Shown: one piece after another, positions 16,231 to 51,830 of the stretch
Position numbering within the stretch: the first letter of the stretch is position 1
How the letters are laid out: each line of letters starts with the position of its first letter
Assembly (NCBI GenBank): GCA_027475525.1
Contig: JAMWFC010000060.1
Location: 620,001-684,000 of the forward strand
DNA length: 64,000 bases
Reading direction: 5' to 3'
DNA from: Macrolepiota albuminosa
Lineage: Eukaryota; Basidiomycota; Agaricomycetes; Agaricales; Agaricaceae
The notes under the pieces: model-generated
Told to the model about the DNA's origin: nothing
The model's input: only the letters and a program-made list of their open reading frames with translations
Databases searched by the model: none
Translations under genes and position numbers: made by a program

Positions 16231-18304
16231 ATGCACTCTCCAAAACGCAGCGGATCGCCTGGTCCAAGCGTCGCCGACTCCAAACGCATAAAGCTCACCG
16301 TAAACCAGGGTGTCACCGCCGTCGACCTCGACAACGCCCCTGGCAAGCGCGGCGAGAATGAGCCCATCCAATCAACAGACATTGGCAACCTACCTCCCGA
16401 TGTGCCATCCCAATCTCGCCCTGAGAATGGCGGCAGAGTCCGTGTCCTTAAGGAGGGTGATGACGACGATGCTGGAGACGTGTCCATGAACGACGGTGTG
16501 GACGAAGATAATGACTCGGGGGACGAGAACGACGACGAGGACCCCGCCCAGCTCGAGGCGACGCGCCAGCGGCTCGAGGAACAGGCGCGCAAGTATCTTG
16601 CAGCGCAAACGCACGAGGTCATTATCCCGTCGTACTCGGCGTGGTTCGACATGTCCCAGATCCACCCTGTCGAGCAGCGTTCGCTGCCCGAGTTCTTCAA
16701 CTCGCGAAACAGGAGCAAAACACCCGCAATATACAAGGACTACCGTGATTTCATGATTAACACGTACCGTCTGCGCCCTACAGAGTATCTCACAGTCACA
16801 GCCTGTAGACGAAACTTGTCCGGCGATGTCTGTGCCATCATGCGTGTCCATGCATTCCTCGAACAATGGGGTCTTATCAACTACCAAGTACGCATTTCCC
16901 TCCCTACAGCCCACATCTCTAATCATACTTTAATAGATCGACCCTGAGGCCCGCCCAGCGTCCCTCGCACCCCCATTCACCGGCCACTTCCGTGTCATAC
17001 TCGACACCCCCCGTGGTCTCCAATCCATGCACCCAGGGACACGTCCCTCCCACCCCTCCAATGCCCAAACAAGCGCTGCCCTCGTCCCTGCCACCTCCGC
17101 GCCCGCCTCCCTCGAACTGCGCAATACCATCTACCAAACCACCTCCAAAGCCTCGCGGCCCGTGAGCGCCGCCGACGCCGCCAGCCTCGCCAACGGCGCT
17201 GTTACAAACGGTAGTGCCGTGTCCCAGACGTACACCTGCGACACCTGCGGCGCAGACTGCACTTCTGTGCGGTATCACTCCCTCAAGGACAAAAAATACA
17301 CACTGTGCGCGCCGTGCTACCTCGACGGTCGTTTCCCAACCACCATGTTCTCAGGCGACTTCGTCAAGCTAACACAGGCAGGGAGCGTTACGCCCTTTGG
17401 TGGCTCAGCCGACTGGACCGACGAGGAAACGTTGAGGCTTCTCGAGGGTGTTGAGATGTACGACGATGATTGGAGTAAAATTGAAGAACACGTCGGTACA
17501 CGCAGCTCGCAGCAGTGCATCAAGCGCTTCTTGGAGCTGCCTATCGAGGACCCGTATCTCCGGGCAGAAGGCGACATGGGACCGCTCAGGTTCGGCAGGA
17601 TCCCGTTCGAGCAGGCTGACAACCCCGTCATGAGTGTCGTTGCGTTCCTCGCGGGCGTGGTGGGCCCCAGCGTCGCTGCGGAGGCAGCGAAGGCCGCTCT
17701 GGGCGACCTGACTAAGGACGGTGAGGTGAAAGAGGAAAATGCCAGTGAGGGCGAAAAGGAGAACGGTGGCGCAGAAGCTGAGAAGGAGGGAGCCAAAGAC
17801 GATGACAAGATGGATGAAGATGGTGCAGAAAACGTCCCTACCAAAGCCGAGTCCGCTACTCCCCTGTCACCCAAACCCGTCCCCAAGATTCCTCACTCCA
17901 AAGTCCAACGCGCAGCGGGGCTCGCGTTGAGTGCATCTGCCAAAGCCGCACAGGCGCTCGCGGACGCGGAGGACATTCACATACGATCGTCGCTTTCCCA
18001 GCTGATCCGGCTAACGCTCACCAAGCTCGAGGTGAAGATGCAGGCGTTCGAGGAGCTGGAAGGGATATTGGAGGACGAGCGCAGGACGTTGGAGGGCGAG
18101 AGGATGAAACTTGTCGCGGAACGCACAGGACTGACGAGGGCGCTTGAGGGGATTAGGGCGGAGATGGCGAGGACGGGCGCGGTTCATGTTGGCGCAGTGA
18201 GTTTGGGGACGTCCAACCAGGGTCCTGTCCTGCAGAGTGTCACTGGGGATATGGCCGGGGATAGTGGGCCGGTTGCGGAGGGGAGTATGTTGTCACTTAG
18301 TTGA
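16231..18304 (+). CDS. SWI3/RSC8 (SMARCC-type) chromatin-remodelling subunit
   Basis: Two exons, 16231-16887 and 16937-18304, give 674 aa; the intron has GT..AG and phase 0. An acidic N-terminus is followed by a SWIRM domain at ~130-240 ([44 protein letters not shown]). Then comes a ZZ-type Cys module at ~317-345 ([30 protein letters not shown]) and a SANT domain at ~378-425 ([39 protein letters not shown]). After an acidic KE-rich linker, a C-terminal coiled coil (~570-640) probably mediates dimerisation. This order is that of Swi3/Rsc8/SMARCC, core subunits of nuclear SWI/SNF or RSC remodelers. The ATG at 16231 gives a clean N-terminus; an upstream in-frame Met at 16162 is less likely. Confidence 0.92.
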
Positions 18305-20357: not shown

Positions 20358-22978
20358 ATGCACAGCTCTACTGCATCCTCTGCTTTCGGACAAACCCTCC
20401 AGTTCATCACATCTACAAAACTTGAGGAACTGGAGAAACAGCGTTTAAGCTACCAGAAGCATGCCAAGGTGCTTCAAGCGGCCGATGCCTGCGGTGATAA
20501 CCTTACCGAGAAAGTTGAGCTTCTACTTGAGGCCGTCCAATCTTGGTCAGGCTCAGGATCAGTAGACGAAGGGGATAGCGTGAGCGGGAAGCTCAATCTT
20601 GCCAATCTTCGTATGTGGCTTCCACAGGCAAAACAAGATCCTAACTTCGATGGCGACATCCTCAGGAGCTGGATCGACACTTTAGAGGGCCACATACGCC
20701 ATTCGCTCATGCGTTTTGACGGTGCAAAGCTGTTTGGCAGCCTCTTTAATGAATGGATTGCGAGTGGAGATTCGTCCGTTGCTCTCCCAGGTTCCAAAGG
20801 CGGAAAGACTGAGTCTGTCACCAACGAAGGCGCCCAAAAAGCGGGAAGGCAAGAGATGCATGATCAACTTGCTCGACTCAATTCCATCATTTTCGAGGAC
20901 GCCAACGTCGATACTGAGGCTCTCGAATCTTACCTCCACGATCTCTTTTCCTCCGAAGAAGCGACCAAGGCTCTACAGAACCTCCGAGAAGAAACGAAGT
21001 CACTGGAAGATTCTCTCAAAAGGGAAACGTTCACTACCAAGAAGGTTGAGATCATCGTCCGTGGGGTTCTTGGGTCGGACCTCATGGACGAGAGCAAGAG
21101 GAAAACATTGAACGAAATCCTCAGCAACTCGATCGTTTTGGTAGAACTGGCTAGCGTTCTCACCATGCGAATGGCTAGTCTTGACACCTGGTCGTGGCCT
21201 ACAGAGGGTGTACTTGTGGAAATGCGTCGCCATCTTAGTGGAAAATATCGGTAAGGACATAATAGTTGTTCACCACTCGGAATATTGCTTACCAAATCCA
21301 TAGGGCATTTACGGATCCAGACATCATCGACGCTCTATTGCTTCATCATATTGGAATCTCTTGGCAGGTGAAGCTGAAGGCTTCGTTCCGACGATTTCTG
21401 GATAGCAAAGCATGGAAAAGACCTCATCCAGTCAAAAATTACAAGAAGAATGTCGAACAATTACGAAATAAATGTAGCATTGACGATTACCGTCAGCAGC
21501 AGCAGAGGCAATTCTTTCTTAATCAGTTGTCGTCATCGAAGCGGTTTTCGAAACAGCCTGCATATGATTACAATCGCCTGGATCAACCCAGTGAGGATGG
21601 CCTGGACCCAGCTTCAGTCAATCAGAAGCTGTTACAGATCATGGCTACCGAAGCTTTGCTCAATACTGTATTGCACGGGTCCTATGCTGTCGTCCGCTCT
21701 GACCTAGAGTGGTTTGGCCCTTCCCTCCCTCACCAATCCATCCTCACCATACTCAAGTTTTTTGGCGTCTCAAAAGAATGGTCTTCATTCTTCCAACGGT
21801 TCCTTCGCACGCCGCTGCGTTTCCAAAGCGATCCATCTGGCCAGGTTCGCACAAGAGTTCGTGGAACACCCTTCAGCTATCCTCTTAGCAGCGTTTGTGG
21901 TGAAGTTATTCTGTTTGTCATGGACTTTGCTGTCAACCAAAAGGCCAATGGCCTCTTCTTGTACCGCTTGCATGATGATCTTTGGCTTTGGGACGCTGAC
22001 CCAGAGAAATGCGCTACGGGATGGAAGGAAATGAATATGTATGCTGATCTTGTTGGTCTCAAGTTCAACGCGAGTAAAACTGGTTCGACATGCATAGGGA
22101 CGACGAGGCCTTCTGGACTTCCTGAGGGTGACATTCGTTGGAGTTTCCTCTATTTCGATCCATCGAAAACGCGATTCGTAATTGACCAGAAACAGGTCGA
22201 TGTCCATATTGTTGAGCTTCGGCGGCAGCTTTCAGCGACAAAATCGGTTTTTGGTTGGGTCAATGTGTATAACAAGTACATGGCTTTCTTTGTGAGGAAC
22301 TTCGGTGGACGACCCGCGCCGTGCTTTGGTAACGCTCATCTTACCGATATCATCAGCACCCTCGCTCGAATCCAGCAAGAACTGTTCCCAAATGTTCAAG
22401 GGGGCGCTGTAGCCTACCTGCGCTCTGTCGTTGAGATGCGTTTCGGTATCAAGGACCTGCCGCAGGGATACTTTTACCTCCCTATCAGCAGAGGCGGTCT
22501 CGAGCTTCGTCATCCAATGATAGAGATGTTTGGATTGAGGCAGAGCTTCGATGATGAGGAAGCACTGAGTTTTGAGGCTCTTGCTAAACAGGATAAATCG
22601 GTGTACAAAGACCTCAAGGATTTTTGGGACGACCCCACAAAAACCTTCCCGGGCAAGGAAGGCCCATTTATGGCCTTCGACGAATTCATTTCGTTACGTG
22701 AGTCGTGGTTGTGTGGATGGAGACACCGCTATGAATACATGTTGACGGTTAAAGGATTGACACGGGTACACAAGACACCTGTTGTACAATCTTATCTGTC
22801 GCAAGCGAAGACTAATTGTACATGGGATGATCTCGACTGGTACGAGCAATGGCTTGTGTCACTCTATGGCGAAGAAGTGGTGAAGCGGTTTGGCAGCTGG
22901 GAAGTGGTTAACTCGTCTCTCATTCCCGTTGGGATGGTTCAATTGTTCAGGACCTCACGAATGAAGGTGGATCAATGA
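20358..22978 (+). CDS. Stand-alone reverse-transcriptase-like protein (rvt-like)
   Basis: Exons 20358-21250 and 21304-22978 (GT..AG intron, phase 2) give 855 aa. ATG at 20358 is chosen because it follows a non-coding stretch and gives MHSSTASSAFG. The N-terminal ~300 residues are helical and coiled-coil-like (LEELEKQRLSYQKHAK). The RT core: first catalytic Asp in VVRSDLEWFG (~431), motif B RGTPFSYPLSSVCGE (~484), catalytic pair in LYRLHDDLWLW (~521), and motif D VGLKFNASKTGS. A ~300-residue C-terminal extension follows. There is no integrase, endonuclease, RNase H, LTR or poly-A tail, so it does not look like a transposon RT. The layout resembles the non-mobile cellular RT genes called rvt in fungi (recall, unverified). 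It is tail to tail with a deaminase-like gene 79 bp away. A partial copy lies at 50210-51647. Confidence 0.72.
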
Positions 22979-23057
22979 AAGGTGTGGGAACATGTGTGAG
23001 AAGATTCAGAGACATTCGATAACTAGATGTAGAAATAAAATATCGCCCTCAGAGTTG

Positions 23058-24443
23058 TCAGAGATACTGTAATTTACGAATATCAATGTACTCAATCATA
23101 CGGTCATGCAGTTCCTGCTCAACGTCTTCAAGGACAATTTGGTCAATAGGGAGAATAGCTGCAATTCCAGTATTTTCACCAGGAAGAGTCCATCCGACAT
23201 CAATCTCTTGTCCAAAACGGGACAACCACCATCTGGGAACTGAGGGCTCATGATTGCTGTAGGCATCAAGCCACAAAGTACAACAGAGACAGCTGCGTAT
23301 GCTGCATCCAATTAGGCGATGTGGTGCGGATGTCATGGCTGGATCCAGTGCGATGCGAATTTCAGGATGAAGAGACAGAGATACTTGAGCGGGTGAATCC
23401 CAATAACCAGAGGGGGCCCTCCGCTTCACCAGCCGTTCCACCATCTGGAACCGTTCCTCCTGGACATCTACAGGGAGCGGAGGCCCAAAGCAGGGATCCA
23501 TCTTTATGAAATCCATGAATAACTGTCTTGCTAGGAGTGATGGTGGTCGACATGCAACGGCATCAGTACTCTTTATCGGAGGATTTGATACGTTGTTTGC
23601 CCAGCGAATTGTGACAGTGCGTTTGTGAACAAATCTCGTAAGTTTCTCGATCCTGTGGAAATAGGCAATCTGCTCAAGGGCATCCCAGAACCTCCTGAGT
23701 CTAGAATACCAATCCTCGTTTGGATCCTTGCTTGTCTGTACAAGGAATGCCATGTATCGAGAAGTTTTCAACATGAGAGCATAGATAACAAGGTCGACGA
23801 AGCGATTATGGCTGGCCTCAATGTCGTTATCCAGTTCCTGTACCGAACGAATGAATCCGATGATGTACTCAAGGATCTCCTGGGAAGACTTGTTGCCCCA
23901 CTTTCTGTCATTGATGACAGTGGTTGTGAAACGATTACGAAACTCTTCTCCTGCCGACTCGTCAAAGGAATGAGAGGCAATGTATGAAAGCAACTCCTTG
24001 AAAAACGATTGACGGAGTGTTCGAATGCGTTCGTTAATATTGTCTCTACCGTGGATTACGAGGAACTTTAAAGCCTGTTTAAAATCAATGGGACGTTGGA
24101 GCGTTTGAAGAAACTCTTCCGAGATTTCTTGGTCATGATGATTAGAGTTCCTGTTCTTTGCGAGAACAAGGGTGATCGGACCATTGTCCTTGACCGATCC
24201 TTCAATGGCAGCAGCAACAAAACTTTCATTGTCAGTGGTAGAGAGGGTGACTGCGGTGGTCTCAAGCATGCGGAAAATTTCCAAATCTTGTTCAAAGTCA
24301 CTTGAGTCTTCGGGTAAAACGCTATCATTGAGTTGCCTTTTATAAGTGTGTATTTCGTATTTCAAGAAGGTGCGGGGGAAAAATTTGAGAAGCGATAAGG
24401 TTTTCGCAAGTACATTGGAACTAGGAGCGTTTGTGGCAGACAT
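23058..24443 (-). CDS. Deaminase-superfamily protein, OTT_1508-like, paralogue 1
   Basis: Single-exon gene of 461 aa starting at MSATNAPSSN (24443). The N-terminal ~340 residues are a helical region. The C-terminal ~100 residues carry a cytidine-deaminase-like zinc signature: H-x-E in SLHPEIRIAL (~359-361) and C-x2-C in GCSIRSCLCCTLWLD (~385, 388), followed by a W-rich strand (RWWLSRFGQEIDVGW). In this superfamily His and two Cys hold zinc and the Glu moves the proton; targets include nucleosides and nucleic acid bases. The arrangement fits the OTT_1508-like branch known from fungi (recall). It shares its N-terminal pattern (LVLAKNR block) with the gene at 25402-26969, so the two are paralogues. 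A near-identical intact copy is at 48727-50112. Substrate unknown. Confidence 0.7.
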   Translation of the reverse strand: MSATNAPSSNVLAKTLSLLKFFPRTFLKYEIHTYKRQLNDSVLPEDSSDFEQDLEIFRMLETTAVTLSTTDNESFVAAAIEGSVKDNGPITLVLAKNRNSNHHDQEISEEFLQTLQRPIDFKQALKFLVIHGRDNINERIRTLRQSFFKELLSYIASHSFDESAGEEFRNRFTTTVINDRKWGNKSSQEILEYIIGFIRSVQELDNDIEASHNRFVDLVIYALMLKTSRYMAFLVQTSKDPNEDWYSRLRRFWDALEQIAYFHRIEKLTRFVHKRTVTIRWANNVSNPPIKSTDAVACRPPSLLARQLFMDFIKMDPCFGPPLPVDVQEERFQMVERLVKRRAPSGYWDSPAQVSLSLHPEIRIALDPAMTSAPHRLIGCSIRSCLCCTLWLDAYSNHEPSVPRWWLSRFGQEIDVGWTLPGENTGIAAILPIDQIVLEDVEQELHDRMIEYIDIRKLQYL

Positions 24444-25401
24444 TATCAAGAGAGGCAAAGTGCGTATCAATCGATAACTTTGAGAAGACAGAAAAAATCC
24501 TTATGTGTATCCTGGCTGACAAATCATTGAAGAGTGGAAAATTTTCCGAATACAGAAAGTACGAGTACGTTCCAAATTGGGACGTAGCAGCATTGTGGTT
24601 ACCAAATGACCAACATCCGTCCAAACATATGGCAGCTGGATCTGAATACATTGCGTTCTATAACCAAATTTGATAGTTTCTCAGTTGGCTCTATCGCATA
24701 AGAGCAAGTTTAATTGTCTCAAATCGCAGGGACACTAATGCAGACGATTTTCGATTCCAATCAAGATATGTAATGGCCGGAACTACTTAGATCGGAAGTA
24801 TATCGGAAGTATATCGGAAGCTACGCTGTGCTAACTGCAGTTTGGTTAATACAGACGAAGGTGGCACACACCAAAGAATTACTACATTTGGTAGGATTGG
24901 CAGGTGGCAGACGACGGTAATCATCAGTGTGTGATGCTCAAGCGTTGAAGCTCAAGAACGATAGGTGTCTTATAACACAGCGCACAATTTGGCCTCTTGC
25001 AATGAAATGTGTTTGGCACTCTTTGAAATATGTACAGTGGTTTCTTGTCACTCCATAATAGATTCAACGTCTTCGCGTTGTTACAAATAGGGCAAATACG
25101 TCCTTTGGTGGCGTTCTCTACTGTCATCTGTCAAAAGTTCTTGTAGAATACGGATCATTGCTGTGTGATTTTTCCGCCACCCTGAGCCACACATATCATG
25201 AAACAGTGGTAGATACTCCATGACCGCCTATTTTGGAACATAAGAATAAGGAATAATCCAGCTCCTGATTCGGCTACTTGTCTCCTGGAGGTATATGAAG
25301 CCCTATATAACATCACACAAATGCAATCACCCTTGCCCAGATATTTTCCCTTTAAACATCACCTTGATTGCTTCTTGTCGCACCTATAGCTCCCAGTAAC
25401 A
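24444..25401. promoter_or_regulatory. Shared divergent spacer between the two deaminase-like genes
   Basis: 958 bp between two divergent starts, so it must hold both promoters. Much of it recurs, inverted, at 39120-39979, and its right part recurs a third time at 51655-51830, so it was copied with the cluster. It contains a 13-bp triplication (ATCGGAAGTAT type, ~24791-24820) present in fewer copies in the second cluster. The matching point of the Helitron insertion in the other copy is an uninterrupted site near 24523/24524. Confidence 0.55.
24924..25127 (-). CDS. Possible small Cys-rich (zinc-ribbon-like) protein in the spacer
   Basis: 67-aa ORF with ICPICNNAKT and CKRPNCALC, i.e. C-x2-C ... 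C-x4-C-x2-C spacing that could hold zinc. The block from ICPIC to TPIVLE is conserved at 39380-39530 of the second cluster copy, where the frame is opened and closed at different points. Conservation may only reflect the recent copying of the spacer. Could be a small gene, an exon, or chance. Confidence 0.3.
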   Translation of the reverse strand: MTVENATKGRICPICNNAKTLNLLWSDKKPLYIFQRVPNTFHCKRPNCALCYKTPIVLELQRLSITH

Positions 25402-26969
25402 ATGTCAGCAAATTCAGCTGGCATCAATCCTCATTCCTTACTCCACAAATGAAAGGGTGTACAGCCTTCAAAGGCTTCAAGTACGCGCGATATGAGAAAG
25501 GAACAGACAAGACTTTCAGAGAATATGGAACTTCTCGAATTGTTTCAATACAAGGATCCCTCGAAGAAGTCAAGTAACGCCAAACCTCATGGAGGTGATC
25601 GGAATGTCTTGCATATTCTTGACGTGATTTCAGTCTGCTTTGCCACTGGCCAGGAAGGTGACGTTATCGCAACAATGGTTGCCATCCAACGGGAGACTCA
25701 GAAAGTCTGCTTCTTCCTAGCAAATAATCGATCTGGAGGACCATCTACTCAGGAAAAAGATGCTATCCTGAAATTTAGAACGATGCTAGCGCGTGCCAAG
25801 ACATACAAGGATCTTGTTCCCTTCGTGGCTGGATATAGCAGCCAAAACGTTACAAAGCGAGTTGGGAAGTTACGCACTGCATTCAATAATGTGCTATTCT
25901 CACAGCACATAACGACGGCTATAAAAACAATTGATCCCGTTTTCCTTCGCCAGGTCCGAGAATGTAGCGAGTTGATCCGTCCAACGCCGAAACCCGACAG
26001 CGATTACCGTCTCCTGAATACATCCACATCGTGTGGAGAATTCGTCCGACTCATTGAAACTGCGAGAATCCTCGAGAATCGAGAAGACTGGAATGATCTC
26101 TGTAAGAAATTATTAGAACAGAAATTCAGTAATCATTTCGAATGCGAATTGGCTGAATATGTCAGAACGTTACAGCGCCGTATTTGGAAAATAACTCAGT
26201 ATCGCGTGCTAGGCAACCTCATTGAATTTGTGAATGCTCATAAGAGTTACGATTTCGAATGGGTACCCGACCTGTTTCGATCAGGGCATAGTGGACAGAT
26301 GACAATCAAACCACAATCCTTGGAAAGAATTGCAAGGTCCCGAGTCGACGAGCTGGTTTTTCAGCAGAAACTGCAACGCCGAACAGAGTACGACGCCTTC
26401 ATAGACAAAGCTCGAAATAAGGCCAAAGAGGATCCGAAAAATTGGCCCACTGAGTTCATAACCAACATACATTGTGAGATTCGGGTGATTCGGTACTGTG
26501 CGGAAATGATCCGAAAAATTGGCCCACTGAGTTCATAACCAACATACATTGTGAGATTCGGGTGATTCGGTACTGTGCGGAAATGTTTGATAAGAAGACT
26601 TTTACTCCACACAAGTTAATGTTCATCGGCACTAGCAAGCGATGCTGCCTATTTTGTGACGAGTGGATCAACCATTTTAACAAGGTTACCGGTAAAAACT
26701 TCACGACCGGGGGAAGTCACGGAAAGGCCTATCGTCGTGCTGCTTTAACAGGAGTAGAGCTCAAAGATTGGATTGAAACTGACAAGAATTTGATGGACGG
26801 AATCGAGAAACACGTTATCAACTGCATCCGCTTGAATATCAAGACACATCGTTCCAAGGTGCTCACGCCTTCGGATGAGTACGCCAGCTCAATGGAAGAT
26901 AGTTCCAACTTGACAGACGAGAATTATAGTAGGTTACTTTACACCGTCAGTTATAACCCAGAGGATTAG
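25402..26969 (+). CDS. Deaminase-superfamily protein, OTT_1508-like, paralogue 2 (frame broken by a 77-bp duplication)
   Basis: Two overlapping open stretches (25492-26538 and 26562-26969) become one frame when one copy of the 77-bp duplication at 26431-26584 is ignored; the span from 25492 is then 466 aa, nearly the length of paralogue 1. The zinc signature is clear: H-x-E in TNIHCEIRVIRYC and C-x2-C in GTSKRCCLFCDEW, then GGSHGKAYRR. The N-terminal half has the same VCFFLANNR-type block as paralogue 1. The conserved leader MSANSAGIN starts at 25402 in the same frame but meets a TGA at 25450-25452, so translation may start at 25492 or the gene may be damaged. It is divergent from paralogue 1. 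A CpG-depleted relic lies at 33815-35128 and a third copy of the leader at ~51620-51647. Confidence 0.72.
26431..26584. repeat. 77-bp perfect tandem duplication inside the deaminase zinc-site exon
   Basis: Copies 26431-26507 and 26508-26584 are identical and cover the H-x-E region. The homologous relic (about 34430-34560) has the segment once. Dropping one copy restores one frame, which strongly supports an assembly join error. Confidence 0.92.
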
Positions 26970-33814: not shown

Positions 33815-35128
33815 CTGTGGTTCTGTTCTTTTCTTTTGTCATGGTCGTATATGTCCAGGCCATCAATATGGGATGGGGACACTTTCATCTAGAGTAGCTT
33901 TCTTGGTCTGAAAACAACAGAAACCTGATTAAATATATCCTTTTGGCAATAGTGGCTCTGCAAATTCTGCTGACAGTCCTCCCTTCCATAGCTGGTATCA
34001 TTTAACTCCAAAGATAATGGTTCTTGTTTATATTGATGTTATATACAAATACACATCTAATGGTTGGATATGCACTAGACTTTATAATTGACCTAATCCT
34101 CTAGTTTATAACTGATGGTGAAACATACCATATAATCCTCATTTGTCAAGTCAGAACTATCTTCCATTGAGCTGGCATACTCATTCAAAGCCGTTAGCAC
34201 CTTGGGACAATGTGTCTTGATATTCAAGGGGATGCAATCAAATTCTTGTCAATTTCAATCCAATCTTTAAGCTCTCCTCCTGTTAAAACAGCACAACAAT
34301 AGGCCTTTCCATGACTTTCCCCAGTCATGAAATTTCTCCTGGTAATCTTGTTAAAATGATTAATCCACTTGTCACAAAATAGGCAGCATCGCTTGCTAGT
34401 GCTGATGATCATCAACTCATGTAGAGTAAAAGTCTTCTTCTCAAACATTTCTGCACAGGACCAAATCACCCAAATCTCACAATGTATGTTGGTTACAAAC
34501 TCAGTGGGCCAATTTTTTGAAACTTCTTTGACCTTCTTTTGAGCTTTGTCTATAAAGATGTCATACTCTCTGTTTGGCATTGCAGTTTCTGCTGAAAAAC
34601 CAGTTCATCAACTTGAGACCTTGCAATTCTTTCCAAGGATTGTGGTTTGATTGTCATCTCTCCACTATTCCCTAATTGAAACAGGTTGGGTACCCATTCA
34701 AAATCATAACTCTTATGAGCATTCACAAATTCAATGAGGTTGTCTAGCATGTGATACTGCGTTATCTTGCAAATCTGGTGCACTAATGTTCTTATGTGTT
34801 TAATCACTTCTTCTGCTTTGAAGTAATTGCTGTGTTTATGTCTTGTTTCACAGAAAAGACATTTTCATTCTTCTCGTTTCTTGAGCTGTCTTGTAGTTTT
34901 GATCAGTCAGTTTGGTGGTTACTTAACCTTAACTTCTTCGATCTTCCCATTGAAACAGTTCAAGAAGTTCCATGTTTTCTGAAAGTCTTGTCTGTTTCTT
35001 TCTCATATTGCACATACTTGAAGCTTTTGAAGGCTATATAATATACCCTTTTGTTTGTGGAGTAAGGAGTGAGGACTAATGCCAGCTGGATTTGTTATTA
35101 TTGTTACTGAGAGCTATAGGTGCAACAA
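33815..35128 (-). pseudogene. CpG-depleted relic of deaminase paralogue 2 with its 3' flank
   Basis: Inverted copy of ~25402-27265. Recognisable blocks: ITQYHMLDNLIEFVNAHKSYDFEW, split here by stops, IHCEIWVIWSCAEMFEKK, STSKRCCLFCDKW, ESHGKAYCCAV. The zinc residues remain in the fragments but frames are interrupted. Nearly every CpG of the better copy is TpG or CpA here (e.g. TCACGG to TCATGG), as after cytosine methylation or RIP-like mutation. At the place of the TGA in the 25402 leader this copy has a sense codon. The 5' end is cut by the insertion starting at 35137. Confidence 0.8.
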
Positions 35129-35136
35129 GGAGCAAA
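35129..35136. repeat. Left 8-bp target-site duplication
   Basis: GGAGCAAA, repeated at 39120-39127. The homologous spacer copies near 25370 and 51680 show this site uninterrupted. Confidence 0.7.
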
Positions 35137-39119: not shown

Positions 39120-39979
39120 GGAGCAAATAAGGTGACGTTCAAAGAGAAAATATCTGGGCAAGGGTGATTGCATCTGTGTGATGTTGTATAGGGCTTCAGA
39201 TACCTCCAGGAGGCAAGTACCTAAATCAGGAACCTTATTCTTATATTCCAAAATAGGCAGTCATGGAGTATCTACCACCGTTTCATGATATGTGTGGCTC
39301 AGGGTGGCAGAAAAATCACACAGCAATGATCCGTATTCTACAAGAACTTTTGACAGATGACAGTAGCGAGCCACCAAAGGACGTATTTGCCCTATTTGTA
39401 ACAATGCAAAGACGTTGAATCTATTATGGAGTGACAAGGAATCACTGTACATATTTCAAAGAGTGCCAAACACATTTCATTGCAAGAGGCCAAATTGTGC
39501 ACTATGTTATAAGACACCTATTGTTCTTGAGGCTTCAACGCTTGAGCATCACACTGATGATTACCGTCGTTTGCCACCTGCCAATCCTACCAAATGTAGT
39601 AAATCTTGGTGTGTGCCACCTTCGTCTGTATCAACAAATTGCAGTTAGCACAGCCTAGCTTCCAATATACTTCCGATCTAAGTAAGTTCCGGCCATATTA
39701 CATGCCTTGATTGGAATCGAAAATCGTCTGCATTAGTGTCCCTGCGATTTGAGACAATTACACTTGCTCTTATGCGATAGAGCCAACTGAGAAACTATCA
39801 AATTTGGCATTAGTGTCCCTGCGATTTGAGACAATTACACTTGCTCTTATGCGATAGAGCCAACTGAGAAACTATCAAATTTGGTTATAGAACGCAATGT
39901 GTCAAGATCCAGCTGCCATCTGTTTGGACGGATGTTGGTCATTTGGTAACCACAATGCTGTATTCGGACTCTTCAATGA
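39120..39979. other. Second-copy divergent spacer, left of the Helitron
   Basis: Inverted match to ~24540-25360, including the right 8-bp target duplication (39120-39127), the region of the Cys-rich small ORF (39380-39530) and the start of the paralogue 1 leader. It ends at CTCTTCAATGA, where the Helitron begins; the sequence resumes at ~48646. Confidence 0.75.
39731..39884. repeat. 77-bp perfect tandem duplication (39731-39807 / 39808-39884)
   Basis: Two identical adjacent 77-bp copies; the first cluster has this spacer segment once (around 24660-24735). Confidence 0.9.
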
Positions 39980-40039
39980 CGAGCTGCGCTGCGTGCCTTC
40001 GGCACGCAGCTAGCATCTCGTTGGGGGCTTCACCCCCAA
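39980..40039 (-). other. Helitron 3'-terminal hairpins
   Basis: Inner hairpin 39988-40010 (GCTGCGTGCC, TTC loop, GGCACGCAGC), outer arms 39980-39987 and 40013-40020, and a second hairpin TTGGGGGCTTCACCCCCAA at 40021-40039. The same layout recurs at 47381-47440 and, decayed, at ~40284-40345. Confidence 0.8.
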
Positions 40040-40054
40040 ACCCCCCCCAACTAA

Positions 40055-40545
40055 GCCTCCACCCTAACCTCACTTTGTTCGGTTAGGGCTCCAAGTATGT
40101 ATAAGTAACTCAGCCTCCACCCTAACCTCACTTCGTTCGGTTAGGGCTCCAAATATGTATAAGTAACTCAGCATCCACCTTAACCTCACTTCGTTCGGTT
40201 AAGGCTCCAAATATATATAAGTAACTTAGTTTCTACCTGAACCTCACTTCGTTCGGTTAAGGCTTCAAATTCAATTTTGCTGCATGCCTTTGGCATGCAG
40301 CTAGTATTTCATTAAGAGCTTTGCCTCTAAACCTCCTCCAACATAGCCTCTACTCTAACCTCACTTCGTTCGGTTAGAGCTCCAAGTATGTATAAGTCAC
40401 TCAACCTCCACCCTAACCTCACTTCGTTCGGTTAGAGCTTCAAATATGTATAGAAAACTCAGTGCTGAATCTCAGCCTCAACCTCACTTTGTTTGGTTAA
40501 AACTTCAAATATATATAAATAACTCAATTTTAAAATCAATTTCAA
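40055..40545. repeat. Subterminal tandem repeats of ~58 bp
   Basis: About seven diverged units with the core CCTCACTTCGTTCGGTTAGG followed by a TATGTATAA-type spacer. In the better units CCCTAACC and GGTTAGGG can pair as a small stem. The same core forms the 60-bp satellite at 47509-48324. Confidence 0.8.
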
Positions 40546-40659
40546 TATTATATATTGTCATAATATATTTTCAACAACAGCTATTACTTGTATTTATTCT
40601 ATATTAAGTGCTATAATTTTGATATATTAGTTTATATTGTTTATTTTATTAAAAGTAAC

Positions 40660-43600
40660 TTACATTTGTAAACCATTTAAAATTTCTTGATATACAATAT
40701 TAGTTGTTCTTCGTGATGTATTTTCTGGTAATAAAATAACTTTGATACGATTACCTGATGTACATCGAGAAAGTGCGACATAAAGCTGTCCATGTGAAAA
40801 AACTGGTGATTGAAGATTCAATCCAACATGTTTGACTGATTGGCCTTGTGATTTGTTTATAGTCATAGCAAATGCTAAACAAACAGGAAATTGTCTTCTA
40901 CGCAATGGAATAGGAAGATCTTCTTCAGATGCATCAAGATTGATTCTTGGAATAAAAACAGAAGATCCTGCAAATTTAGCATCACCACTGATAATTCGAC
41001 ATTGCAAAACACGGCGGCCAATATTTGTAACTATCATTCTTGTTCCATTGCAAAGACCTTTAGATGGATCAAGATTTCGAAGAAGCATGACTGGAACACC
41101 AATTTTTAAAACTAATTTTGCTAAAGGTAATCCACTTGCAGCTAAAGAATTAAGATATTCCATAGGATATGGTGGAAATGCATTGTTATTATGAGATTCA
41201 ATGTGTACAGAATCTGCACTCCACAATATTTTTTCTTCACCTGAAAATTGATTAAGGACTTTTAAGTTGATATCATCTACATCAGAATTTGTACATGAAA
41301 GAATTGTTCGATCTAGATAATATTGATCATTATGAGCATGTGCAATGTCAGGATATGTAGATGCAATTAGGCCTTTAATTGAGTTATCATTGCACATCAT
41401 TGTTTCTGGAATTTGAATTGTTTCTCCAGGCTCTAAATTTTTTCCTGCACCAATATCCAATAACCAAGCTGCATGAGCAACATTTTCTGGAGTTTGTTCT
41501 AAGCGCATATTTTGAACTAAATAAAATACTTCAATTTCTTTCCACAATCTTCCTTTACTTAAAGAAGCAGCAATAATCTGTTGCCTCAATCCTCTTGGAA
41601 TAACTGGTAATGTTTGTCGAAAATCTCCTCCAAAAACTATAGTAATTCCACCAAATGGTTTGTCATTATTTAAAACATCTCTTAAAGCACGATCAACAGA
41701 ATCAATAGCATTTTTATGTTGCATTGGAACTTCATCCCAAATTATAAGTTTTGTTTGTATTATAACTTGATGTAAATTTGTTCCTTGTTTAATATTTGCA
41801 ACAGAAGTATCTATAGCAGGAATTGGTATTTTAAAGCGTGAATGTGCAGTGCGACCACCTTCTAATAGCAAAGCAGCAATTCCAGATGATGCTACACATA
41901 ATGCAACATTTCCATTAGAACGAATAGCAGCAGCTAGAGTATTGCAAACAAAAGTCTTTCCACATCCACCTGCACTGTGAAGAAAAATCATTTTTCCAGA
42001 ATTGTTATTTACAGAATTTATAACAGCATTGAAAACATTTGACTGTTCAATATTGAACTTGGCTTTGTTTTCATTAACAGTTCTTTTCAATGCTTCAACA
42101 TCATAACTCAACTCATCTTGTAATAGCCAATTATCAGGAATATCATTCCACATTTCATTTTCAGAAGGTCCTGTAGGTAATGGCATATTTGGAAAATCTT
42201 TTAAAGTTTTTCCTGACTGCATTAATTTTTCATTAATAAGATAAAGACCATAATCATATATTGTTTCTTCTTCAAAATGCCGACCTCTATATTGTCTCAT
42301 TCTTTCTAATCTGCGTTGAAGATCATCACAAATATATTGTTTAAAGCGATTCCAAAGATCTTCAGGAGTAGTAGGAGCACAGTGAAGTAAAATAGTACAA
42401 AAAAGTAATCGAAGAGTTGTTCCTGTTTGCATTGGAGCAGCTTCACTTAGACATTGGATCCATTCTGCATCATCTTCTAAAAGACCACGGGCATTACATG
42501 CTTCTTTATATGTTCTATATTCAATACCATTAACTGTTTTTAATTCAATCCATGATGTAGCATTCATTACAACAGTTAGAAGCATTCGGAGATAAAATCT
42601 TTCTCCTTGAGAAGGTGAAGCAAAATACATTCTTCCAATTGCATATCCTCTTTGCCGATTTTTCCAACTTCGTGTTTTTGCTTCATACACAAATTTTGTA
42701 GGAAAATTTTGATAAGTAGTATTATTGTTTGGAAATTTTTGATTAGCTTCAAACCAAGCAGTCAAAGCAGTCTTTTCTAAATTTTCTCTAGCAGCAACAG
42801 CTTCCAAAGATTCATTATCTTGAAAAAAAACTTCATGTTGACCTTCTAAATGTACAGGAAGGCGATAAACAGAAGGCTCTTCAGCATGCATATTAAATTC
42901 AAAAATATGCCAGCATGCTTCAGGAGCTGAAATATATCGAGCATCTAAATGTTCTTTAATTTCATCTCTTTGATTTGGCTCTCTAGAAATTTCTAATGTA
43001 GTACGATCATGTTCTTTATAAATATATTTATGAATATATTTAATTGCTTCAACTGAAGCACATATTTCAACATTAATGTGGCATTGATATTTTGCTGAAA
43101 GATAAGGATTATATGGTACAACATCACGATTATCATAATGATGACCATTTTTTATAAAATGACGACCATTGTTAGGTCGAGCATATTGAGGATATCCATT
43201 GTCACCAAAATGAGTTGTTTCTCGAAATTCTTTTGGATATCTTTTTGAACATTTTCCATCTACCATACATTTAGCATCTGGCTTTATATTTCCACATGGA
43301 CCATGAACCATATTTGTAGTAATAACTTTATAAAGTTCAGGCTGAGTAACTGGATCAGGAATTTGAGCTGAAACCATAGAATCAACTTGCATTGCATCTC
43401 TAATTCTATGCTGTTCATGAAGAAATATTAAGATATGCATATGCGGTAAACCTCTTTTCTGAAATTCAATAGTGTGCACATGTGCTACTACATTTCCAAA
43501 AATACCATCTTTAAGTTCTTTTAAAATAGCATTTTTCTTTAGTTCAAAAACACGTGCAACAATATCAGGTCGATCAGCAGCTGTTTGTTTTTTTCCATTA

Positions 43601-46041
43601 ATAGTAGGTTCTTTTAAAAGAGCTTCTTCAATTTCAGTCCACTTTGGATTTGCAGTCATAGTCATAAAAATATCAGGTTTTCGAAAATGTCTACAAATAG
43701 CCATAGAATCTTGAAAAAGTTGTTGCATTTGTCTTTCACTTCCAGTATGAGATGCAGGAAGAATAACACGACGGCTTTGATGTGGTAATTCTTCATCTCC
43801 AGCAGCAGCATCAACAACACCTTGATATACTTCGGCTCTAATTTTTTTTTGATTATGTCTAACCCAATTAAGTTTGCTTTGTTCAATTGAAGCCCATGCA
43901 TCAACAACATATTGCTGAAATAATTTACCACTCCAAAGCAAAGCAGCATTAAATTCTGAAGTTCTTTGTTGAAGCCGATAAGCATAATAAGCAGTTTCAG
44001 TAATATATTCTGTTCTACGCTGACCTTGTGGTCCAGACTGAGAAGGAATATTTGAATGAAATCCATGTTCTCCAGTTGGAAATATAAGTGTATAGTGTAA
44101 TGGTGTATATGCTGAGTGTAAATGACTAATTTGTTTTAGCTGACCACCATGCAAATGCAAAATTATATCTCGATGATTAGAACGCTCTTCAGAACCATCT
44201 CCAGGAATAACTGCAGCTACTCCTTCTTGTTCATTTGGATTGTTATATCTTCTATGATCTCCAAAATCAGCTCGAAGTTTGACATAAATTTTTTGTGGCT
44301 GATTCTCTGGAACATCTCTCATAATTTGATAAGCTTGTTTATATAAACCAATATATGGATTAACACGCCAAATCATATCTTGCAAGATTGCCATAATTGC
44401 TGGATCTAATCCAGGATTATTACGTTGTCGTAAAGTTAATTGTTCATTATGATCATAAAAATATAATTGTGCATATATAGGATTATGACCTTCAGCAGGA
44501 AGTAAAGCACCTGTAAGATGATGAAGTTCTCCATTAATTCGAAAACTATATGGGCCTGGAGCATTTGTAATAGCATGATCAATTTTTACACCTAAAGAAG
44601 TAAATGCAAATGCTGCATTATATTGACGAATATGTGCTTTAAAAGCTTGAGAAAGAAGATGACGGCCATGTAATAAATCAAGAAGTTCATGTGGAGCATT
44701 TTTCAATTTGGGTAAAACAATTTGACCTTGTAAGCAACATATGCCAAATTTTGGATTATTTCGAGTAGATTTACTAAGTTTTTCAGAATCAAAATGTAAA
44801 GCTTGACAATGTGAGCATAAAATATTCATAGATCCAATATTATGCTTTTCAGGTTCATTTATGTAAGGTTGTCTTCCTCGCAGAAGCAAAGCATTTCTTT
44901 GTTGACCTCGACAATTTGGTCTTTGAGCTGGTTGATTTTCAACTTCAACTTCTTGTAATATATTTTGTTCTTCTGGTATATGCATTGCAGGATTGTGATT
45001 ATTTAAATTCTGCTCTTCAAGATTATTTATATTTTGCATAGGTTCTTCAAAGTATTCAAGAGGATTTTGCATTAATTGATTCCAAGCTGCTTGAATATTT
45101 ATCAACTCAATATCTTCTTGAAGAGCAAGATTTTGCTGATCATGATCATTAACATCATTAACATTTTCTTCTAATTCAGCTGCATGTTCATGTTCCCAGA
45201 AATTCAAGATTCTTTGAGCTACAACTTCATTTAAAGGTCCATATTCTGGATCATAATTCATATTTGCTTGTTGAGCTCTCAACTCAGCTATAGCAGCATT
45301 TTGAGCCTGTCTTTGTATTTCATCTTGTCTTAATCTTTCTTGTTCTTGTAAATTAGCTAAAATTCTCTGTCTTTCTTGCTCTTGTGCAACAGCTAATGCT
45401 TGTTGTTGTGCTGCAACATGTCTCATTCTTTGTTGTTGTGATAATGCAAGAAGTGCTTGCTGTCGTTCAGCAGCATTTCTTTGACCTTCTTGCTCATAAA
45501 AATAATTCAATCTTTGTTCATGATTAGATGCCATCTCCCTATATGCAATATCTCCTCGTGTTAAATTATTAAGTGCAGGATCTGCATGTCCACTGGATAT
45601 ATCATGTAATGGACCTCTAAGTCTTGAAGAAGATGTAAAGGTAGCATTAGAGGATTGCCTAGCAGATGGAATATTTGCAATAGGAGCAGGAGAAATAAAT
45701 GTAGATGTAGACTGAGCAGGTTGATTAATTTGTCTTTGTCTTCTGTTTCTTAAAGGTACAGGTGCAGGTGGCACATATTGAGGAATAGGATTCTGCAAAG
45801 GAGCATCCCAACCCTCAGGTAAATGAGTTTCAGGTATATTAAAGGAAAAAGGATCATTGACAGCAGCAGGCTGTCTAATAGGAACATCAAGTCTCTCAGA
45901 AGTTCCAGGAGCAGTAACTACAGAATTGGAAGCATGACTATTTTGTGCAATTGACTCAAAATGAAGAGGTGCTATAGATATAGCACCACTATTCAGAAAT
46001 CTGTTACTTCTATTTGCACGACGATCATCAGGATCAGTCAT
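40660..46041 (-). CDS. Helitron Rep/helicase (RepHel), intact 1793 aa
   Basis: One uninterrupted reading frame. N-terminal ~350 residues are N/Q-rich with coiled-coil character. A Cys cluster (CSHCQALHF) lies near 410, then the Helitron Rep N-terminal part (YRLQQRTSEFNAALLW). The HUH nuclease motif HMHILIF follows KRGLP (~867), with paired Tyr in YIHKYIYKEHD (~1000). The C-terminal Pif1-type helicase has Walker A SAGGCGKTF (~1359), Walker B IIWDEVP, GGDFRQTLPV, and late motifs TINKSQGQS and YVALSRC. It nicks and unwinds DNA for rolling-circle-like transposition. Strongly AT-rich codon use unlike host genes suggests transfer or long life as a selfish element. No stop or frameshift over 5.4 kb makes recent activity plausible. 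Confidence 0.95.
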   Translation of the reverse strand: MTDPDDRRANRSNRFLNSGAISIAPLHFESIAQNSHASNSVVTAPGTSERLDVPIRQPAAVNDPFSFNIPETHLPEGWDAPLQNPIPQYVPPAPVPLRNRRQRQINQPAQSTSTFISPAPIANIPSARQSSNATFTSSSRLRGPLHDISSGHADPALNNLTRGDIAYREMASNHEQRLNYFYEQEGQRNAAERQQALLALSQQQRMRHVAAQQQALAVAQEQERQRILANLQEQERLRQDEIQRQAQNAAIAELRAQQANMNYDPEYGPLNEVVAQRILNFWEHEHAAELEENVNDVNDHDQQNLALQEDIELINIQAAWNQLMQNPLEYFEEPMQNINNLEEQNLNNHNPAMHIPEEQNILQEVEVENQPAQRPNCRGQQRNALLLRGRQPYINEPEKHNIGSMNILCSHCQALHFDSEKLSKSTRNNPKFGICCLQGQIVLPKLKNAPHELLDLLHGRHLLSQAFKAHIRQYNAAFAFTSLGVKIDHAITNAPGPYSFRINGELHHLTGALLPAEGHNPIYAQLYFYDHNEQLTLRQRNNPGLDPAIMAILQDMIWRVNPYIGLYKQAYQIMRDVPENQPQKIYVKLRADFGDHRRYNNPNEQEGVAAVIPGDGSEERSNHRDIILHLHGGQLKQISHLHSAYTPLHYTLIFPTGEHGFHSNIPSQSGPQGQRRTEYITETAYYAYRLQQRTSEFNAALLWSGKLFQQYVVDAWASIEQSKLNWVRHNQKKIRAEVYQGVVDAAAGDEELPHQSRRVILPASHTGSERQMQQLFQDSMAICRHFRKPDIFMTMTANPKWTEIEEALLKEPTINGKKQTAADRPDIVARVFELKKNAILKELKDGIFGNVVAHVHTIEFQKRGLPHMHILIFLHEQHRIRDAMQVDSMVSAQIPDPVTQPELYKVITTNMVHGPCGNIKPDAKCMVDGKCSKRYPKEFRETTHFGDNGYPQYARPNNGRHFIKNGHHYDNRDVVPYNPYLSAKYQCHINVEICASVEAIKYIHKYIYKEHDRTTLEISREPNQRDEIKEHLDARYISAPEACWHIFEFNMHAEEPSVYRLPVHLEGQHEVFFQDNESLEAVAARENLEKTALTAWFEANQKFPNNNTTYQNFPTKFVYEAKTRSWKNRQRGYAIGRMYFASPSQGERFYLRMLLTVVMNATSWIELKTVNGIEYRTYKEACNARGLLEDDAEWIQCLSEAAPMQTGTTLRLLFCTILLHCAPTTPEDLWNRFKQYICDDLQRRLERMRQYRGRHFEEETIYDYGLYLINEKLMQSGKTLKDFPNMPLPTGPSENEMWNDIPDNWLLQDELSYDVEALKRTVNENKAKFNIEQSNVFNAVINSVNNNSGKMIFLHSAGGCGKTFVCNTLAAAIRSNGNVALCVASSGIAALLLEGGRTAHSRFKIPIPAIDTSVANIKQGTNLHQVIIQTKLIIWDEVPMQHKNAIDSVDRALRDVLNNDKPFGGITIVFGGDFRQTLPVIPRGLRQQIIAASLSKGRLWKEIEVFYLVQNMRLEQTPENVAHAAWLLDIGAGKNLEPGETIQIPETMMCNDNSIKGLIASTYPDIAHAHNDQYYLDRTILSCTNSDVDDINLKVLNQFSGEEKILWSADSVHIESHNNNAFPPYPMEYLNSLAASGLPLAKLVLKIGVPVMLLRNLDPSKGLCNGTRMIVTNIGRRVLQCRIISGDAKFAGSSVFIPRINLDASEEDLPIPLRRRQFPVCLAFAMTINKSQGQSVKHVGLNLQSPVFSHGQLYVALSRCTSGNRIKVILLPENTSRRTTNIVYQEILNGLQM

Positions 46042-47226
46042 TTGAAGTTGCTGAAGTCGACTCTGAGTGCGAGATTGTTGTCTTTGACTTTCAGGAGTAG
46101 TAGGAATTTGATTTTGATTGGTAGAAGATGACCTAAATTAAATTTTTAATATAGAAATTAATAAAAAGCAAAGAAGAAGAAATTTACATGATTGTGTCTA
46201 ATAATATAGATTAAATGCATATTTAAAATAATATAAAAATGCTACTTACTAAGCAATTTACAAATATATATAAAAAATAGCAGTAATACAAATGATGTGA
46301 TATTCTATATAAGATAACATTAGAATAGAAATTAAATATGATAAAAATCTATACATACTTTGAAAAAAATAAAGCTTAACAATTGAACATATAATTTTTA
46401 GCCAAAAAAAATTGACTGAAAAACACTGAATATTAGTTATTATATATATAAATATAAATGCATACTTTTAAAGCAAAAAAGCTTAAAGATGTTGAAAAAA
46501 GAGAATTTTCAAATTGAAACTTGAAAAATAAAAAGATTACTATAAAACTATGAATATTAGTTATCAAGAAAAATGATAAATACCTACTTTTCAACAGTTC
46601 AATAAAAAACAAATAAAAAGCTTAATTAATAAAGATCAATTATTAAATACTTACTTTCAATTCAAAAAGCCAGTAAATCTTCACACAAAAGTAAGATGCA
46701 AAAATCTTGAAAAGTTATTAGAAACTATAAATCAAGTAGAACACTAATTATACTTACAAAATCTCCTCCAAAAAATATATATTTCTTAGCAATTTTCTGA
46801 CTATAAATTTAAATTCTAAAATTATAAAAATCAGCTATAAAATCTTATTCAAAATACATACTTTCAAGTCAAAAAGCCAGTAAACCTCCAAAAAAACAGT
46901 CCTGATACAATAGATGGGTGAATCTGAAAGTGTTTTCAGCTTATCAATTTCAGATCAGCCACAGATTTGATAAAAAATCCATACACAACAAAAATGAGCA
47001 ACAAAACCCTTTAAAAGTTGTCAGAAAGTACACATCATCAAAAGATCAGTAGGCATCCTTACAGAATAGAGCAAGAGTATAGTGTGTTTGTTGAAAGGAA
47101 GACAGGGATGAAGGATGTAGATAATCAACGGATGGATTGATGGATTTGATGGACTCCGAAAATTGCACAGCCACAAATTCAAAGTCAGCTTATTTGATAA
47201 GCTGCTGACAAAGATTAGCTAAGATT
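46042..47226. other. AT-rich 5' region of the Helitron
   Basis: About 1.2 kb of AT-rich DNA upstream of the Rep/helicase start, with recurring TACTTTNAA-type motifs every 60-100 bp. Presumably the promoter and leader; no other gene seen. Confidence 0.5.
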
Positions 47227-47380
47227 TTGATATTCTGACAAATCTTAGGTCAGCAGTGCCAAAAAAGGATCAAGTTCACACAGGTCGTCCAATTCTATAT
47301 AGATTGATATTCTGACAAATCTTAGGTCAGCAGTGCCAAAAAAGGATCAAGTTCACACAGGTCGTCCAATTCTATATAGA
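47227..47380. repeat. 77-bp perfect tandem duplication at the Helitron 5' end (47227-47303 / 47304-47380)
   Basis: Two identical adjacent 77-bp copies ending exactly at the Helitron terminus. A break at a repeat boundary is where a de Bruijn-graph assembly would end a contig. Confidence 0.9.
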
Positions 47381-47440
47381 CGAGCTACGATTCGTGCCTT
47401 CGGCACGAATTTCGTAGCTCGTTGGGGGCTTCGCCCCCAA
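47381..47440 (-). other. Terminal hairpins of the second Helitron-like unit
   Basis: CGAGCTACG ... CGTAGCTCG outer arms enclose ATTCGTGCC-TTC-GGCACGAAT (47381-47421), followed by TTGGGGGCTTCGCCCCCAA (47422-47440). Near-perfect pairing, better kept than at 39980. Confidence 0.85.
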
Positions 47441-47508
47441 ACCCCCCCCAACTAAGCCTCCACCCTAACCTCACTTCGTTCGGTTAGGGCTCCAAGTATG
47501 TATAGAGA

Positions 47509-48324
47509 ACTCAGTGCTTAATCCCAGCCTCAACCTCACTTCGTTCGGTTAAGGCCTCGGTAATCGCAACTCAATGCTTAATCCCAGCCTCAACCTCACT
47601 TCGTTCGGTTAAGGCCTCGGTAATCGCAACTCAATGCTTAATCCCAGCCTCAACCTCACTTCGTTCGGTTAAGGCCTCGGTAATCGCAACTCAATGCTTA
47701 ATCCCAGCCTCAACCTCACTTCGTTCGGTTAAGGCCTCGGTAATCGCAACTCAATGCTTAATCCCAGCCTCAACCTCACTTCGTTCGGTTAAGGCCTCGG
47801 TAATCGCAACTCAATGCTTAATCCCAGCCTCAACCTCACTTCGTTCGGTTAAGGCCTCGGTAATCGCAACTCAATGCTTAATCCCAGCCTCAACCTCACT
47901 TCGTTCGGTTAAGGCCTCGGTAATCGCAACTCAATGCTTAATCCCAGCCTCAACCTCACTTCGTTCGGTTAAGGCCTCGGTAATCGCAACTCAATGCTTA
48001 ATCCCAGCCTCAACCTCACTTCGTTCGGTTAAGGCCTCGGTAATCGCAACTCAATGCTTAATCCCAGCCTCAACCTCACTTCGTTCGGTTAAGGCCTCGG
48101 TAATCGCAACTCAATGCTTAATCCCAGCCTCAACCTCACTTCGTTCGGTTAAGGCCTCGGTAATCGCAACTCAATGCTTAATCCCAGCCTCAACCTCACT
48201 TCGTTCGGTTAAGGCCTCGGTAATCGCAACTCAATGCTTAATCCCAGTCAATGCTTAATCCCAGCCTCAACCTCACTTCGTTCGGTTAAGGCCTCGGTAA
48301 TCGCAACTCAATGCTTAATCCCAG
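47509..48324. repeat. 60-bp satellite array, about 13 identical units
   Basis: A 60-bp unit (core CCTCACTTCGTTCGGTTAAGG, then CCTCGGTAATCGC and CTCAATGCTTAATCCCAG) repeats exactly from ~47509 to 48247. The final irregular part is a 77-bp join duplication. Exact identity means recent expansion or copy-number uncertainty in the assembly. No spacers differ between units, so this is not a CRISPR array. Confidence 0.92.
48171..48324. repeat. 77-bp perfect tandem duplication at the satellite end (48171-48247 / 48248-48324)
   Basis: The phase break in the 60-bp array is explained by an exact 77-bp repeat of the preceding sequence, again matching the common unit length. Confidence 0.85.
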
Positions 48325-48726
48325 TTTGCCTCAACTCTCAGAGCATTATTGTAAGCTAAATTGAATTTTTCTTGAATTTTTCAGATTTCTTTAAGCATTT
48401 ATAAATCTCAGAAAAACTCAAGTCAGTGTATCAGTAGGCCTCGAATTTTTTCTGATTTTTCAGTGATTTTATCTGAATTTTCTAAGCATTTCTAATGCTG
48501 AAATGAGCCAACTCTTATGTTATTACCCTAAAAGGAAGGTTCTTGGTCAGCCTTGGTCAGCCTTACTAATCAGATAGTTCCCACGAAACGGTTGTCCCAT
48601 ATATTATAGATATATAGATAATATAATATAATATAATATATAGAAGATTGTCAGCCAGGATACATATATGGATGTTTTCTGTCTTCTCAAACTTATCGAT
48701 TGATACGCACTTTGCCTCTCTCAATC

Positions 48727-51647: not shown

Positions 51648-51830
51648 TGTTACTGAGAGCTATAGGTACAACAAGGAGCAATTAAAGTGACATTCAAAGG
51701 GAAAATATCTGGGCAAGGGTGATGGCATTTGTGTGATGTTATATAGGGCTTCAGATACCTCCAGGAGGCAAGTAGCTAAATCAGGAACCTTATTCTTATC
51801 TTCCAAAATAGGCAGGCAGTCATGCATCCG
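51600..51830 (-). promoter_or_regulatory. Third copy of the deaminase paralogue 2 promoter and leader
   Basis: Inverted match to ~25240-25430 (GCCAGCTGAATTTGCTGACAT, AAATATCTGGGCAAGG, ATACCTCCAGGAGGCAAGTA blocks, each repeated at 39130-39260 or 35060-35130). It stands directly upstream of the RT fragment, giving it the deaminase start codon and promoter region. The right edge near 51830 is the limit of the second cluster. Confidence 0.7.

Follow-up and report, generated by a model that had tools for sequence, protein, structure and literature searches.

A UG37-like reverse transcriptase gene beside a putative two-subunit OTT_1508-like deaminase in Macrolepiota albuminosa

We analysed a 64-kb stretch of the Macrolepiota albuminosa genome (contig JAMWFC010000060.1; G000:C14:620001-684000; hereafter the window), in which a gene for a reverse transcriptase (RT) lies beside two genes, D1 and D2, for deaminase-like proteins. 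The assembly comprises 100.1 Mb in 129 contigs, among which C14 carries the window and C12 represents the second haplotype. We consider it reasonably likely, with a probability of about 0.6, that the cluster consists of two functionally separate modules side by side, an rvt/UG37-type RT and a two-subunit D1-D2 deaminase, which are linked locally and were duplicated together. These are probably two separate modules of a defence or stress type rather than one copy-and-edit machine. The deaminase side of this reading rests on the recurring adjacency of D1 and D2, on the intact zinc tetrads of both and on their membership of unlike clades. The RT side rests on the RT fold of its structure model, the catalytic residues, the collinearity with the UG37 profile, the few amino-acid changes between haplotypes, the lack of a mobility domain and a duplication that kept the intron.

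The RT gene (20358-22978, forward strand; 855 aa) has one intron, of 53 nt with GT..AG borders (21251-21303), between exon 1 (20358-21250) and exon 2 (21304-22978). It stands tail-to-tail with D1 (24443-23058, reverse strand; single exon, 461 aa), with 79 bp between the two in the window's first copy of the group and, by matched coordinates, ~100 bp on C12. D1 and D2 (25402-26969, forward strand) start divergently from a 958-bp spacer (24444-25401), a candidate bidirectional promoter. Coordinates, strands, the 79-bp gap and a divergent spacer of ~1 kb had all been described correctly in a first-pass annotation of the window, which also proposed that the RT and the deaminases could copy and edit sequence together.

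A pair of unlike deaminases

By profile and motif, D1 and D2 are paralogous OTT_1508-like deaminases (PF14441), the family of the Neurospora OLD antiviral RNA editors. D2 matches PF14441 above the cut-off (E 5.4e-12), D1 remains under it (22.1 bits, cut-off 27 bits), and a comparison of the two family profiles by hhalign gave 97.3% probability over 311 columns. PF14441 was found at E<=0.01 in 13 of the 14 scanned members of the D1 and D2 families. The H-x-E and C-x2-C zinc tetrad, H359/E361/C385/C388 in D1 and H353/E355/C386/C389 in the C12 allele of D2, is invariant in mixed D1/D2 alignments of 14 and of 15 sequences, and the two proteins are ~20% identical. Two paralogous deaminase-like genes with their zinc residues kept, as first suggested, are thus confirmed. 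A protein search returned eight relatives for D1 and six for D2; 13 of these 14 are Termitomyces proteins, and the remaining one belongs to Tephrocybe.

One correction is needed: in the window, D2 is not an open gene. Its reading frame meets a TGA at codon 17 (numbered from the ATG at 25402) and is shifted further on by an exact tandem duplication of 77 nt (26431-26584); the C12 allele carries a single copy of the 77-nt unit and is open (491 aa). The repeat was probably introduced during assembly. Exact 77-nt tandem duplications occur at ten places in the 64 kb (1393, 1595, 3433, 4212, 6214, 7759, 26431, 39730, 47227 and 48171), and when the window was scanned for exact tandem repeats with units of 25-259 nt, no other size appeared except one 60-bp minisatellite (periods 60, 120, 180 and 240). 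One fixed size at ten places points to a k-mer overlap left by the assembler (k=77) rather than to biology. Duplications of 77 nt were also seen in two further loci, L003 (C65) and L034 (further along C14), and none was seen in the stretches of C12, C70 and C78 that were scanned. Such probable k=77 artefacts can break genes. The minisatellite array occupies 47388-48408 and is exact for ~730 bp from 47515.

Linkage in other genomes was judged from contig sizes and locus tags only, on draft contigs of 3-112 kb, with matches clustered at 90% and 120 of the 524 RT matches listed. Within this scope, D1 and D2 homologues adjoin one another on three contigs, which belong to two further Termitomyces: in T159_Od127, tags 012817 and 012818 (D1) stand beside 012819 (D2) and 010600 (D1) beside 010599 (D2), and in T32_za158, 012873 (D1) stands beside 012874 (D2). 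Six contigs bear D2; all three that exceed 4 kb have D1 on the adjacent tag, and the other three are shorter than 4 kb. As far as drafts and listed matches go, the conserved unit is D1 plus D2.

Pairing extends to the wider OTT_1508 family, which is large in this genome. A tree of 22 proteins splits into D1, D2, A and B, each a starred clade; the tree program cautioned that long branches meet. By our own grouping of rows, the genome holds ~20 B-clade and 11 A-clade places, and at four of the 11 A places a member of the 20 B places lies within 1 kb. Two of these four are head-to-head, at C107:2591948-2594962 (229 bp apart; the reported TGA codons are frame ends) and at C107:2404512-2407212 (183 bp apart). 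What is new here is the occurrence of unlike deaminases as pairs, D1 with D2 and, head-to-head twice on C107, A with B; our literature search found no description of such a deaminase pair or of an RT-deaminase cluster. The adjacency of unlike partners in separate pairings suggests a two-subunit enzyme. A topology joining D1 with A and D2 with B was favoured in an approximately unbiased test (p 0.81 vs 0.26 and 0.15), from which two of the 22 rows, the long-branched D1_P0128 and the partial A_C126_577, were left out; these trees lean tentatively towards a single ancestral pair behind both (D1,A) and (D2,B). The B clade has also expanded along C126 (5-1489 kb), where 14 of the 20 B places lie, several of them near-identical.

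The deaminases could instead form a fast-evolving, expanding family in which adjacency comes merely from duplication and D1 and D2 act independently. The ~20 B and 11 A places, many of them on C126, would fit this, as would an indication that D1 copies have exchanged sequence by ectopic conversion (see below). However, the neighbours belong to deeply split, unlike clades, as the low identity of D1 and D2 indicates, and are not the latest duplicates, and the head-to-head order recurs. We regard independent action as possible but rather unlikely.

The reverse transcriptase and its linkage

The RT is related to, and collinear with, the RT profile that represents the prokaryotic UG37 enzymes. RT_UG37 matches exon 2 of the window RT at 1.5e-50. 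In P0001 from Termitomyces sp. T32_za158, the closest RT protein among the matches listed (88% identity over exon 2, likewise 855 aa), the match is collinear and nearly end-to-end (residues 13-719, E 7.3e-71), and four further RT relatives give 6e-68 to 5e-65. The closeness of P0001 suggests that the host is most likely a Termitomyces, a termite-cultivated mushroom. Six other RT-like matches, on other contigs of the window's own genome, reach 22-27 bits only. PF00078 (RVT_1) matches the RT at E 1.3e-5 with 25.5 bits, below the Pfam cut-off of 29.6 bits.

An AlphaFold2 model of exon 2 adopts an RT fold (pLDDT 83), with R2, DRT9, group II, LINE-1 and TERT RTs as its best PDB matches. The catalytic aspartates D133 (motif A, codon 21701-21703, forward strand) and D224 and D225 (HDD, motif C, 21974-21979), in exon-2 numbering, are invariant in 31/31 aligned sequences, that is, the window RT and 30 picked from the matches listed. 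Helices 5-32 and 102-124 of the model flank a ~70-residue stretch of variable length and partly low pLDDT, which our own motif assignment would place as an insertion before motif A. The RT alleles on C14 and C12 differ at 15 of 2565 positions (dN 0.0025, dS 0.0178; dN/dS 0.14, from these 15 differences), and each haplotype has one open copy, further copies being broken. The RT probably belongs to the domesticated "rvt" class, to which it is likened by description, and UG37 may be the bacterial branch of rvt. Direct scans of genome contigs for RT relatives, testing prokaryotic membership, found none; the named RT matches among those listed range across Agaricomycetes.

In the three other genomes that list both families, RT and deaminase homologues share no contig (0/3). 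Termitomyces T32_za158 has its RT on a contig of 15,914 bp and its listed deaminases on contigs of 12,062, 3,790 and 3,940 bp; in Termitomyces Mi166 the respective contigs measure 19,242 and 34,266 bp; and in Tephrocybe rancida the RT contigs of 61,314 and 17,134 bp are separate from the listed deaminase contig of 111,655 bp. Two more Termitomyces, Mn162 with the RT alone and T159_Od127 with deaminases alone, have no bearing on linkage. RT-deaminase linkage as a conserved feature is therefore rejected, on contig sizes and locus tags only, and the earlier idea of a joint copy-and-edit function is not supported. The D1-D2 pair recurs, and the RT lies outside it as far as drafts and listed matches show. 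Divergence between the haplotypes is likewise uneven: D1 alleles have a dS of 0.095, ~5x that of the RT alleles (0.018), D2 upstream of the 77-nt duplication has dN 0.025 and dS 0.037, and flanking DNA is ~2-3% different. These figures mark the deaminase segment as the variable part of the locus and the RT as its constant part.

A bolder proposal, which we hold to be unlikely, is that the locus is a fungal defence island in which an rvt/UG37-type RT and a heterodimeric OTT_1508 deaminase with both active sites kept would serve one antiviral response; in its wider form, pairs of unlike OTT_1508 deaminases would serve mushroom fungi generally as a two-component editing system, one that differs from the OLD-ZAO layout compared below. 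We are still more doubtful that the RT and the deaminase pair act jointly as one system of genome or virus defence, with the RT making DNA or copying RNA and the deaminases editing template or product. Such a system would agree with the tail-to-tail order of RT and D1, seen in each haplotype and again in the second copy of the group, with the relatives that both families have in antiviral defence and with a D2 relic near an RT pseudogene on C70. Against it stand the separate contigs in all three genomes, the very different spread of the two families (the RT over Agaricomycetes among the matches listed vs eight D1 and six D2 relatives), the near constancy between haplotypes of the RT but not of D1, and C78, apparently allelic to the C70 locus, from which no D2 match was reported.

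It is very improbable that the RT is a retroelement, whether in disguise or recently dead, even with degraded RT copies on C70, C78, C14 and C12 and at least five RT paralogues in Galerina marginata among the matches listed: Pfam at E<=1 shows RVT_1 alone on the RT and no endonuclease, integrase or RNase H, an open copy with few amino-acid changes persists in both haplotypes, UG37 is matched over nearly the full length, and the C70 and C78 pseudogenes can be aligned across the intron and into the upstream DNA, which indicates DNA-level copying. The initial view of a non-mobile RT with its catalytic residues in place has thus stood. Decay of the RT copies shows no excess of the kind left by repeat-induced point mutation (C-to-T plus G-to-A vs the reverse, 44 vs 42 and 46 vs 45).

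Several observations weigh against the two-module reading. Elsewhere, D2 is seen on only 3/6 D1-bearing contigs, and the D1-D2 adjacency could be a remnant of an old inverted duplication. Structure prediction, which succeeded for the RT, gave a poor model for D1 (pLDDT 64) with no deaminase match. Among the A-B places, the A match at C107:2404512 is split into three pieces; the other two places, C126:592818 and its near-duplicate C126:625956, are tandem, with a fragmentary A 981 bp before B; and the A row at C126:577 kb is partial and without the zinc motif. The degraded D2 relative on C70 (153732-156362) lies ~7 kb from the RT pseudogene and could hint at an older RT-deaminase linkage. On the RT side, the UG37 profile also matches in 3/14 control genomes (scores not displayed), and exon 2 is weakly matched by other RT profiles as well.

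If the two modules are indeed separate, the RT, as a host-domesticated enzyme, would add nucleotides without a template under stress such as blocked translation, by analogy with what is written of rvt. D1 and D2 would be co-expressed from their shared divergent promoter and bind each other as unlike subunits of one nucleic-acid deaminase, a heteromer without an evident ZAO partner. Like the OLD proteins, this enzyme may deaminate adenosine in RNA hairpins (A to I), as part of an antiviral response or one of self-recognition. Linkage of the RT with D1 and D2 is local to the lineage as far as the drafts show; it was duplicated as an inverted repeat, of which the second copy is decaying.

The second copy and its surroundings

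Copying of the group, noticed at first pass, is evident from an inverted, partly degraded second copy at 51.7-33.8 kb. In it, RT' (50213-51659, reverse strand) is truncated and broken, with the D2 upstream region and D2 codons 1-10 (MSANSAGINP) in place of its 5' end; D1' (48727-50112, forward strand) keeps an open 461-aa frame and is 95% identical to D1 in DNA; the copy of the D1-D2 spacer occupies 39120-39979 (reverse strand); and D2' (33815-35135, reverse strand, some 3' flank included) is degraded and has stops. This spacer copy and that of C12 are both partial. D1 of C12 is 98.4% identical to D1' of C14 vs 94.9% to its own allele, a sign of non-allelic (ectopic) conversion.

Within RT', a chimeric open frame (51063-51659, reverse strand) places the D2 upstream region and ten D2 codons in frame with the RT from the insertion loop on, and C12 aligns with an identical junction. 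D1' is separated from its spacer by an AT-rich insertion of ~8.7 kb (39980-48647), which holds an open 1825-aa frame (40663-46137, reverse strand) matching Helitron_like_N and PIF1 helicase; C12 looks like an empty site for this insertion. Beyond the RT, at 16937-18301, lies a gene for a ZZ/Myb/SWIRM-associated chromatin-type protein (Pfam on 20 open reading frames).

Comparison with known systems

The rvt genes are domesticated, RT-related cellular genes, described by Arkhipova, Gladyshev and co-workers in passages of PMC5718144, PMC10680173 and PMC3520738 as having prokaryotic and eukaryotic members, non-templated, protein-primed polymerisation and a single copy under purifying selection, with stress-linked, non-templated synthesis in PMC10680173. 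The RT resembles them as a host gene that has no mobility domain and few amino-acid changes, in which a putative insertion precedes motif A and which, by the UG37 profile, may have prokaryotic counterparts; it differs in that some Agaricales carry several RT paralogues and not one, the likeness being one of description. To the prokaryotic UG37 RTs (PADLOC model PDLC03776, labelled DRT) it is tied by the collinear profile match (E 7e-71). Unlike them, the gene is fungal and spliced, and an Rfam scan of the window gave nothing at gathering score. A literature search under UG37 returned nothing related, by title. The match ties an unexplained, widespread class of mushroom RTs to bacterial defence-type RTs.

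The Neurospora OLD proteins perform A-to-I editing of RNA hairpins in antiviral defence, and in the OLD-ZAO layout one deaminase adjoins the zinc-finger transcription factor ZAO, whose transcript is edited from UAG to UIG, according to passages of PMC12754623. The present locus shares with it an OTT_1508-like deaminase with HxE...CxxC, but here the neighbour is a second, unlike deaminase. ZAO is of the C2H2 type; a search with a single C2H2-like pattern, ignoring introns, found none in the six frames of the window or in the other scanned loci, and Pfam on the same 20 frames showed as zinc-finger factors only the ZZ/Myb chromatin-type protein and a zf-RVT fragment. A further comparison is Tad2-Tad3, a heterodimeric adenosine deaminase whose Tad3 subunit has lost the catalytic Glu, as a passage of PMC12754623 has it. 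Two unlike deaminase-fold subunits, for D1 and D2 a proposal, are the point of likeness, whereas in D1 and D2 alike the tetrad is intact, and their family is a different one. The known layout for fungal OTT_1508 antiviral editing is one deaminase plus one transcription factor; the recurrent unlike pairs suggest another layout, perhaps that of a heterodimer, which is directly testable in a mushroom-forming fungus.

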